This document shows, one piece after another, positions 914-62,449 of a stretch of DNA of 62,449 bases (position 1 is its first letter; each line of letters opens with the position of its first letter). The stretch is from the NCBI RefSeq assembly GCF_900113615.1, contig NZ_FOPZ01000021.1, forward strand, positions 1-62,449. The letters run 5' to 3'. The notes below the pieces were generated by a model, which was given only the letters and a program-made list of their open reading frames with translations, was not told where the DNA came from and did not search any database. The position numbers were made by a program, and so were the translations under genes. Origin of the DNA: Halorubrum aquaticum. GTDB taxonomy: Archaea > Halobacteriota > Halobacteria > Halobacteriales > Haloferacaceae.

Positions 914-3532
<2,619 letters not shown>

Positions 3533-60750: not shown

Positions 60751-61755
60751 CTACAGCAATCCCGACAGCACCGTGTTGAAGCTCACGCCGACGACCACGC
60801 CGATCGTAACGACCGTGGTCGCGTAGATGACCAACAGCCGGCGCTCGAACAGCTTGTTCAACAGGATCAGGTTCGGGATGCTGATCCCCGCGCCGCCGAT
60901 GACGAACGCGATCACGGTCCCGATCGGGATGCCCGCCTCCGTCAGCGAGTGGGCGATCGGGAGCATGCCGCTCAGGCTCACGTAGATCGGCGCGCCGGCG
61001 AGCGCCGCGAGCGGCGTCGCGAGCGGGTTGCCCGGGCCCGCCACCCGCTGGAGGGTCTCAGCGGGGACCGCGCCGTGGATCAGCGCGCCGATGGTGATCC
61101 CCAGGAGGAGGTACGGGAGCGTGTCGCGGAAGAAGCCGAGCGCGCCGCGGCCGGCCGCCGAGACCCGCTCCGCGTGGGTTCGCGAACCGGAAGCCGCCTC
61201 GCAGCCGCAACAGCCGCCCGTCGCGGCCGCGCCGTCGGCGGGGGTTCCTCCTCCGGTCATCCCCCCGTCGGTCGCCACCTCACGGCCGCCGGCGGTGATC
61301 CGGACGTCCTTGACGTAGCGGTCGAGATCGAGCGCGCCGACGACCAGCCCGCCGACGATCGCACACGCGAGCGCCGCGACGACGTACGCGGCCGTCACCG
61401 CGGGACCGAAGAGCCCGAAGAGCAACACGACCGCGATCCAGTTGACGATGGGTGAGGCGAGCAGGAACGAGAAGGACATCCCGATCGGCGCGCCCGCGCT
61501 CAACAGCCCCGCGAGGACGGGCACGGTCGAACACGAACAGAAGGGCGTCACCGCCCCCAACCCCGCCGCGAGGACGTTCCCGCTGCCGTGGTCCCGCGAG
61601 CGGAGCAGTTCCTCGACGCGCTCGGGCGGCAGGTACTCCTGGGCGAGTCCGACCAGGAAGGAGGCCCCCAAAAAGAGCGGCGTGAGGACGACCGCGAGGT
61701 GGAGGAAGTACTCCCAGGAGTCGGCGAGCGCCGCCTCGGTGCCGGGCGGGATCAC
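60751..61755 (-). CDS. Permease of the DUF318/ArsP type (probable arsenical or metalloid efflux)
   Basis: 334 residues, about eight helices in two repeats. TPFCSCSTVPVLAGLLSAG holds the Cys-Ser-Cys substrate motif of ArsP-like permeases; ATGGCCGCEA in the central cytoplasmic loop adds a Cys cluster likely to bind metal. The C-terminal half mirrors the first (AGAPIYVSLSGMLPIAHSL). The GTG start overlaps the arsR stop by 4 nt (GTGA), linking it to arsenical regulation. Confidence 0.86.
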   Translation of the reverse strand: MIPPGTEAALADSWEYFLHLAVVLTPLFLGASFLVGLAQEYLPPERVEELLRSRDHGSGNVLAAGLGAVTPFCSCSTVPVLAGLLSAGAPIGMSFSFLLASPIVNWIAVVLLFGLFGPAVTAAYVVAALACAIVGGLVVGALDLDRYVKDVRITAGGREVATDGGMTGGGTPADGAAATGGCCGCEAASGSRTHAERVSAAGRGALGFFRDTLPYLLLGITIGALIHGAVPAETLQRVAGPGNPLATPLAALAGAPIYVSLSGMLPIAHSLTEAGIPIGTVIAFVIGGAGISIPNLILLNKLFERRLLVIYATTVVTIGVVVGVSFNTVLSGLL

Positions 61756-62252
61756 GATTCACCTCCCAGCGCCGCGGCCAGGTCGATCAGTTGGAGGCTC
61801 GCCGTGTCGGCGATCCGGTAGTGGGTCCACTTCCCGTCCTTCCGCGTCCGGACGATCCCCGCGTCGCGGAGCTTCCGGAGGTGGGTCGCCACCGTCGACT
61901 GCGGCGCGTCGAGGACGGCCTCCAGGTCGCAGGCGCAGAGCTCGCCGTCGCGGAGCGCGTGGACGACCGCGAGCCGCTTCTCGTTCGCGAGCGCCTTGAA
62001 CACAGCCTCCTCGTTCGCGACCGCCTCCGGGTCGGGTCGGCGATCGTCGATGGCCGACCCCTCACAGCAGGCCCTCTCGCTTCCCTCCTCGAGCCGCCCG
62101 AGCGTCGCGGTCGTCGATCCGGTTCCGTCGTCGATTCGGTCGCCGGTTCCGTCGTCGATTCGGTCGCCGGTTCCGTCGTCGATTCGGTCGCCGGTTCCGT
62201 CGTCGATTCGGTCGCCGGTTCCGTCGCGTTCGTCGTTGGACTGATTGGACAT
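61752..62252 (-). CDS. arsR: ArsR-family metalloregulator with repeat-containing N-terminus
   Basis: 166 residues from ATG 62252. The C-terminal 95 residues are the winged helix: VFKALANEKRLAVVHAL, GELCACDLEAVL with CxC metal-sensing Cys pair as in ArsR, then STVATHLRKLRDAGIVRTRK as recognition helix. ERACCEGSA adds a vicinal Cys pair upstream. Residues 10-44 are a fourfold RIDDGTGD repeat encoded by perfect 24-bp repeats. It should repress the operon until arsenite binds. Confidence 0.9.
   Translation of the reverse strand: MSNQSNDERDGTGDRIDDGTGDRIDDGTGDRIDDGTGDRIDDGTGSTTATLGRLEEGSERACCEGSAIDDRRPDPEAVANEEAVFKALANEKRLAVVHALRDGELCACDLEAVLDAPQSTVATHLRKLRDAGIVRTRKDGKWTHYRIADTASLQLIDLAAALGGES
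62127..62222. repeat. Four perfect 24-bp tandem repeats inside arsR
   Basis: Units at 62127-62150, 62151-62174, 62175-62198 and 62199-62222 are identical, with a partial degenerate copy before the first. In frame they encode an acidic octapeptide; perfect identity points to recent slippage expansion. Confidence 0.93.
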
Positions 62253-62284
62253 ATTCGATGAGTTCTTTCTTTTCGTTCGGTCGT

Positions 62285-62389
62285 TCACGCTTCCCCCTCG
62301 TCCGTATCCGGGTCTATCTCCTCGATACGAACGTCACAGCAGTCACTGTCCTTCTCACCGCCGCCGAACAGTCGGTCAAGCATCGACAT
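62285..62389 (-). CDS. Small Cys-Cys protein heading the ars-type operon
   Basis: 34 residues: MSMLDRLFGGGEKDSDCCDV then RIEEIDPDTDEGEA. Two adjacent Cys in an acidic context suggest soft-metal or thiol chemistry. The stop lies 32 bp before arsR on the same strand, so they are probably co-transcribed. An ATG two codons later (62383) is an alternative start. I know of no assigned function; a metallochaperone for the permease is an inference from cysteines and context. Confidence 0.7.
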   Translation of the reverse strand: MSMLDRLFGGGEKDSDCCDVRIEEIDPDTDEGEA

Positions 62390-62449
62390 ACATATTGAGA
62401 AAACTCGATTCGACTTTAGTGTTGTGGTCGTTCCGGTTCGAGAGGGTCC

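Follow-up and report, generated by a model that had tools for sequence, protein, structure and literature searches.

Small thiol proteins are already known from arsenic and organometal systems, namely ArsD, SaoC and HcsL/HcsS. ArsD carries adjacent cysteines and serves ArsA, and SaoE belongs to the same SAO system as SaoC. In the accessible parts of the respective papers, ArsD is described as an arsenite metallochaperone (PMC3091736, PMC6514093) of thioredoxin-like structure (PMC3091736), and SaoC as a small protein with a Cys-Cys pair that belongs to a predicted organometal system (PMC13188914). HcsL and HcsS (halo-CC-star) are haloarchaeal, end in Cys-Cys and are encoded behind ArsD-ArsA on the Halorubrum megaplasmid NZ_CP034941.1 (L247, 12996-13627).

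The gene considered here specifies a 34-residue Cys-Cys protein, short enough to escape gene calling. It was found in a stretch of 62,449 nucleotides from Halorubrum aquaticum (assembly GCF_900113615.1, contig NZ_FOPZ01000021.1, positions 1-62,449), which as a whole is referred to as the window. Like ArsD (PF06953), the peptide is a small thiol protein of ars operons, but ArsD is thioredoxin-like according to the part of the source seen, and neither PF06953 nor any other Pfam family was matched by the window peptide or 12 relatives. On two plasmids, H1 and H2, ArsD is encoded near the peptide operon, and the peptide therefore does not simply replace it. With SaoC (NF040734, in the portion available a Cys-Cys-COOH (seleno)protein) the peptide shares small size and adjacent cysteines, but its pair is mostly internal and NF040734 was matched by none of 13 haloarchaeal and three bacterial members. 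The window peptide and the 13 haloarchaeal members matched no NCBIfam family at all, and the three bacterial ones only unrelated families with E values of 0.14 or worse. HcsL and HcsS lie about 5 kb from a peptide operon, but are 138 and 74 residues long; HcsS did not align with the peptide, and for HcsL the comparison was visual. Haloarchaeal C(P)XCG zinc-finger micro-proteins are, in the descriptions seen in part, likewise very small and cysteine-containing, but the peptide lacks CPxCG and has only one Cys pair.

The permease encoded next to the peptide belongs to the same Pfam family (PF03773) as ArsP/SO_0444-type permeases and carries the ArsP signature. For these permeases no small partner protein is mentioned in the accessible portions of the literature examined, and the searched literature, including PMC13188914, PMC6514093, PMC3219624, PMC3091736, PMC3600143 and PMC5552862, holds in the parts available no description of such a peptide. 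In nine plasmid records it is a 'hypothetical protein' in two and unlisted in seven, where the gene table is incomplete. What appears to be new, judged from sequence comparisons, is a peptide with no detected relation to ArsD, SaoC or HcsL/HcsS that is tied to ArsP-like permeases in two domains of life.

The locus in Halorubrum aquaticum

The reading frame of the peptide is located on the minus strand (62285-62389) and leads a peptide-ArsR-permease run; its product reads MSMLDRLFGGGEKDSDCCDVRIEEIDPDTDEGEA. The core motif CCDVRIEE comprises residues 17-24 (62318-62341, minus strand), the Cys pair itself lying at 62336-62341 of the same strand. It is followed, also on the minus strand, by genes for an ArsR/SmtB-family repressor (arsR, 61752-62288; NF033788, PF01022) and an ArsP_1 permease (60751-61755; PF03773). 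Both junctions are 4-nt overlaps (GTGA), the peptide stop overlapping the GTG start of arsR and the arsR stop the permease start; an alternative arsR start is the ATG at 62252. A preliminary description of the window had placed a 34-residue Cys-Cys protein 5' of arsR and a CSC-motif permease, and this was borne out, with ACCEGS, GGCCGCEA and CSC all present. Upstream of the peptide ATG, the window contig continues for 60 bases. Contig C20 shares a 528-base overlap with this end. On it, the closest preceding long frame in the same orientation (C20:780-2294, 504 aa) stops about 310 bases before the ATG. Therefore, the peptide gene is probably the first of a three-gene operon.

The frame is a real, conserved gene, as indicated by mostly synonymous changes in the coding frame only and by a conserved upstream block. 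For five 34-residue homologues the per-site N/S ratio was 0.54 in frame versus 1.17 and 1.24 in the shifted frames, and for nine 45-residue homologues 0.26 versus 0.97 and 1.33. Directly 5' of the ATG, the upstream alignment revealed a promoter/operator-like block (62390-62420, minus strand). Mean pairwise identity was 66% at positions -31 to -1 versus 31% at -56 to -37 among 19 gapless rows of operon types A and B (defined below), picked from 48 haloarchaeal rows after exclusion of near-duplicates and type C; type C operons carry a different upstream block. A TATA-like element is present about 25-31 bases before the ATG, which we take to be consistent with a leaderless haloarchaeal mRNA.

A short frame that comes first in its run, overlaps arsR and contains adjacent Cys codons could also be a leader peptide or upstream open reading frame whose sole effect is on how arsR and the permease gene are transcribed or translated. 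Selection on amino acids beyond the cysteines speaks against this, as do the downstream position of the peptide gene in bacteria, its tandem repeats and its fusion to another domain. The leader-peptide reading was rejected on position, repeats and fusions, and is regarded as extremely improbable.

The window ArsR scored 91.8 bits against NF033788 (cut-off 55, E = 1.7e-26) and also matched PF01022. In ArsR of E. coli R773 an As(III)-sensing C-x-C precedes the recognition helix. The window protein has a CxC site, ELCACD (61926-61943, minus strand), and a CxC is present in ArsR at all 40 distinct archaeal loci. By fold and CxC, the window ArsR qualifies as a putative arsenic-binding, As(III)-sensing repressor. 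A second Cys pair, ACCEG, is located in its N-terminal part (62058-62072, minus strand). The same N-terminal part contains an in-frame array of 4.5 copies of a 24-base unit, all matching at 100% (62119-62227, DGTGDRID repeats), and this array is absent from arsR of the close relatives L040-L043.

The permease matched PF03773 (ArsP_1) with 192 bits (cut-off 32.3, E = 1.7e-56) and contains the ArsP signature as PFCSCSTVP (61519-61545, minus strand). The underlying motif, PXCSCXXXP, serves to call ArsP orthologues according to the part of PMC5552862 that was seen. Among 52 related permease rows, 40 archaeal and 12 bacterial, the signature was strict in 44 and relaxed in all, and the CxC was found in every row; the archaeal rows keep the L054/L133 duplicate and leave out L159, whose permease frame is short. 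With domain and signature the permease is classed as ArsP-like, its export of methylarsenite being putative. Neither the permease sequence nor its AlphaFold model (pLDDT 65) matched a PDB entry, the latter at E <= 0.001. In two Bacillota ArsP_1-type permeases of a peptide-free clade, L236 and L243, an in-frame TGA replaces the first Cys codon of CSCSA, which possibly specifies selenocysteine.

The preliminary description had also held that all three proteins share Cys-Cys pairs. For the window this stands, with the permease pair in the loop GGCCGCEA (61195-61218, minus strand). Beyond the window it does not hold generally: the pair in ArsR occurs in type A operons only, and a loop pair (CC, CxC or CxxC) was found in 38 of the 40 archaeal rows but in one of the 12 bacterial ones. 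Constant sites are the CC of the peptide (rarely CxC), the CxC of ArsR (40/40 loci) and the CxC of the permease (52/52 rows).

The peptide family and its operon types

The core of the family is CC followed mostly by [DGSN]-[VMI]-x-I-E-E-[VI]. All 28 rows of an alignment share the first Cys; the second Cys and first Glu are each present in at least 90%. N-terminal to the core there is a short segment (LDRLFG, LLKKIFG, LGKITDTLFG or LNRIWNRLVNRY), hydrophobic and charged in character, and then a variable charged linker. Haloarchaeal peptides have about 34-50 residues with a mostly internal Cys pair. AlphaFold predicted one short helix with low confidence (pLDDT 63), and from this model the acidic peptide is probably disordered. 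An amphipathic docking helix at the N-terminus is weakly supported, three of 17 segments beating shuffled sequences at p < 0.05.

Two search results were set aside. The match of a Brevibacillus repeat peptide to Galaxin_repeat (E = 3.6e-5) was below the cut-off and was taken as an artefact of Cys composition, and two PDB matches of the peptide profile (E = 0.09 and 0.18) were taken as chance.

Some family members are larger. Brevibacillus copies consist of two or three CCxVxIEEV units and one last CC, and the haloarchaeal peptide L152 holds four CC pairs. Such multi-copy versions, together with the acidic and probably disordered nature of the protein in the low-confidence model, would suit a metallothionein-like thiol buffer, protecting the cell by sequestering the arsenical or metal but not delivering it specifically to the permease. 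However, 39 of 40 distinct archaeal copies hold just one or two CC pairs, and the tie to one permease clade together with the conserved non-Cys residues VxIEE suggests a partner surface. Buffering as the main function is therefore considered rather unlikely.

In five Bacillota copies the module is fused to DUF2703 as detected by a local HMM, and for L117 this was confirmed by PF10865 (E = 7e-39). DUF2703 has a thioredoxin-like fold according to the part of PMC3091736 consulted, and with its vicinal cysteines the peptide could reduce the permease, ArsR or the arsenical as a small, glutaredoxin-like dithiol. Against such a redox helper, which is judged unlikely, no thioredoxin domain was detected by Pfam in the peptide itself, its pair is an adjacent CC rather than CxxC, and at two loci it is replaced by CxC. 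In L053 (3938-4555) and, in weaker form, in L215 (2804-3154), the Cys-Cys module is joined to an unnamed domain with a VGG..(I/V)GI.G motif, for which no Pfam family was matched in L053. L215 adjoins an ArsP_1-like permease and L053 adjoins arsM.

Comparison of the 40 distinct archaeal loci revealed three operon types, which are co-inherited as sets of peptide, ArsR and permease context. Type A (17 loci, window-like) combines a peptide of the LDRLFG type with an ELCxC-containing ArsR, and type B (nine loci) has an LGKI-type peptide and ELCxC without the N-terminal CC. In type C (14 loci) the peptide is of the RxWxR type, with more than one CC pair in 11 of the 14, ArsR contains ECCGC, and an ArsM frame adjoins the permease gene in five, one of these (L145) being a short fragment. 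The N-terminal CC of ArsR was found in 15 of the 17 type A operons and is missing from all 23 operons of types B and C; as a general site it was rejected, being confined to one operon type.

This co-variation of operon types, the CC in most type A repressors and the overlap with arsR in the window could indicate a regulatory co-sensor, that is, a peptide gathering the inducer for ArsR and not for the permease. In bacteria, however, the peptide is found with the permease at loci that have MarR or PadR regulators, and the permease is therefore a more constant partner than ArsR. A co-sensor is thus thought quite unlikely. The PadR-like regulators encoded upstream of bacterial operons (L116, L117, L118, L121, L125, L127, L053), an assignment scored for L116 and L117 only and there below the cut-off, contain a GCCTPT motif, and MarR regulators at other bacterial loci contain GECCGDLS, GECCENLT or KYCCISGG. 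A Cys pair is thus found in three regulator families (ArsR, MarR, PadR) at peptide loci.

Distribution and linkage to the permease

The module is not confined to haloarchaea; it occurs at lower frequency in Bacillota, Desulfobacterota and other archaea, where its neighbour is usually a permease of the same type. The peptide profile matched 39 of 341 Halobacteria genomes at E <= 5e-4 and 18 of 246 genomes of the wider archaeal phylum at E <= 0.01. From the wider set, five of ten genomes labelled 'same phylum' only were inspected. Two archaea outside the haloarchaea, G1027 (L211) and G1060 (L212), encode the peptide directly 3' of an ArsP_1-like permease gene, G1094 (L215) has a weaker fused version beside the permease, and in G1098 (L214) CC is absent. 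In the non-haloarchaeal G1047 (L213, ~3033-3443) a thioredoxin-like protein shows a similar N-terminus, MGLLDKLFGRE, and lacks the CC module.

In Bacillota, 11 of 299 genomes were matched at E < 1e-4, two of these being seeds, and in the phylum of the Desulfobacteraceae seed two of 345, one of them the seed itself; the seeds G377, G379 and G380 are counted among the matches of the bacterial samples. The Bacillota figure derives from one sample, a second, almost identical one being left out. From these values, the peptide is uncommon in bacteria. Public genome contigs yielded 18 loci, 14 from haloarchaea, two from Brevibacillus, and one each from a Clostridia and a Desulfobacteraceae MAG. Halorubrum cibi has two different peptide copies on separate contigs (L041, L049), about 81% and 54% identical to the window peptide. 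Weak matches lacking a neighbouring ArsR or permease gene (e.g. L021, L024, L025, L027, L023) were dropped as chance; for L023 the wider region (L164) was also empty.

The 40 distinct archaeal loci, in which L054 and L133 represent the same locus and are counted once, were chosen by the peptide. Therefore, only permease-led scans of Halobacteria and Bacillota measure association from the permease side. Among 194 Halobacteria genomes, such a scan yielded 30 loci in 29 genomes, with a CC peptide ahead of arsR at 26, a CxC variant at two and neither at two. The profile recognised the peptide at 22 of them and the other eight were read by eye, with CC at L180, L183, L184 and L185, CxC at L190 and L191, and none at L192 and L193. 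Absence of the peptide beside arsR in other haloarchaea had been named beforehand as a possible refutation of the preliminary description; conservation was observed instead, at 28 of the 30 loci (two with CxC). The 26 CC loci include Halorubrum tebenquichense (L048/L015, G137), in which an in-frame stop directly follows the CCDM codons of the peptide frame; tblastn coverage at this locus remains complete for the permease gene and extends over most of arsR.

The Bacillota scan listed 64 places, of which 30 were examined. The peptide was found at 11 of 14 permeases at least 43% identical to the query, but at none of 16 permeases with 38% identity or less, a lenient rescan included. At one of the three close Bacillota loci without a detected peptide, L217, the downstream sequence spans only about 310 bases. 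Since these three and two haloarchaeal permease loci are without a detected peptide, it is not strictly required by the permease.

Starting from the peptide, a permease gene on the same strand adjoins it in 13 of 16 bacterial regions, the permease of L119 being an 80-residue fragment. No adjacent permease is present at L121 and L125, DUF2703 fusions behind a PadR gene, and at L131, next to arsM. Gene order varies, the peptide being encoded first in haloarchaea, before the permease in some Bacillota, and 3' of the permease in Brevibacillus, a Desulfobacteraceae MAG and two other archaea. The linkage of peptide and permease is thus independent of gene order.

Arsenic context and proposed function

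The arsenic setting assumed in the preliminary description received support from the relatives, whose neighbours include ACR3, ArsD/ArsA, ArsM and ArsB/ArsC. Nine haloarchaeal plasmid records with good peptide coverage were analysed with flanks of 4 kb (H1), 8 kb (H2) or 5 kb (all others) on each side; H5 is probably the L153 locus, and H3/H4 and H8/H9 are close pairs. Annotated arsenic genes are located near the peptide at seven of these nine loci: ACR3, ArsD and ArsA on H1, ArsD and ArsA followed by the CC-ending HcsL and HcsS on H2 (NZ_CP034941.1), ACR3 with a second ArsR and a low-molecular-weight phosphatase on H3, H4, H5 and H7, and an arsenite methyltransferase on H6. On H8 and H9, from two strains of one species, no arsenic gene was found within 5 kb. 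The permease is listed directly after arsR in eight of the nine records, the gene table of H3 having a gap there. Three further matches (H10-H12; 51% coverage, E values of 0.1 to 0.8, inside an annotated gene) were dropped. With the window peptide as query only H1 and H2 were found, with a type B peptide no plasmid, and the copies near arsenic genes on plasmids are at most 54% identical to the window peptide.

ArsM adjoins five of 40 archaeal operons, all of type C, and was confirmed by NCBIfam for L137. In bacteria, Brevibacillus L055 adjoins ArsB and ArsC, an arsenite methyltransferase lies alongside the Clostridia copy (L053/L131), and an ArsM-like frame is present at L123. The searches of the window genome found neither an ArsM orthologue nor ArsD, so that arsenic is deduced there from the relatives. 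Because of the arsenic genes on plasmids, ArsB/ArsC at L055 and the ArsP signature, the most likely substrate is arsenic, as arsenite or methylarsenite.

The same carrier could convey copper, zinc or another soft metal instead. The closest NCBIfam models of the permease are SO_0444 Cu/Zn efflux (NF033936, 117.8 bits, below the cut-off of 300) and SaoE (NF040736, 100.2 bits, below that of 325), Shewanella needs SO_0444 under zinc or copper stress according to the accessible part of PMC3219624, and a Zn/Cd-type ATPase gene is also near Brevibacillus L055. In view of the arsenic genes at seven of nine plasmid loci, of ArsM beside some operons and of the ArsP motif, such a cargo is very unlikely.

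The gene is conserved and co-inherited with the permease and, in haloarchaea, with a CxC-type ArsR. Regarding function, a role as a minimal thiol metallochaperone of the cytosol, dedicated to the ArsP-like efflux permease and carrying trivalent arsenic, has about even chances, binding and transfer being proposed from the sequence data. A trivalent arsenical, arsenite or methylarsenite, would reach the repressor and switch on the operon, and the peptide would be made first on induction. Captured by the Cys pair of the peptide, the arsenical could then be handed over to the permease, at the CxC site, for export. Docking to the permease or the membrane may be the task of the N-terminal segment. 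Tandem Cys-Cys copies and the fusion to DUF2703 might provide more capacity or added redox recycling. A chain of arsenical transfer among peptide, ArsR and permease, as suggested in the preliminary description, is plausible. More tentatively, and with somewhat less than an even chance, CC[D/G]VxIEE may represent an unrecognised cross-domain module, a dedicated substrate hand of ArsP-type exporters that is reused as repeats and in fusions with DUF2703 and perhaps a second domain.

If the metallochaperone reading is true, ArsP-type pumps would gain a carrier partner comparable to ArsD for ArsA, and the peptide would be among the smallest metallochaperones, common to archaea and bacteria. An unnamed conserved gene would be explained, delivery of arsenicals to ArsP would become directly testable, and a distinct clade of ArsP permeases would be marked by its presence.
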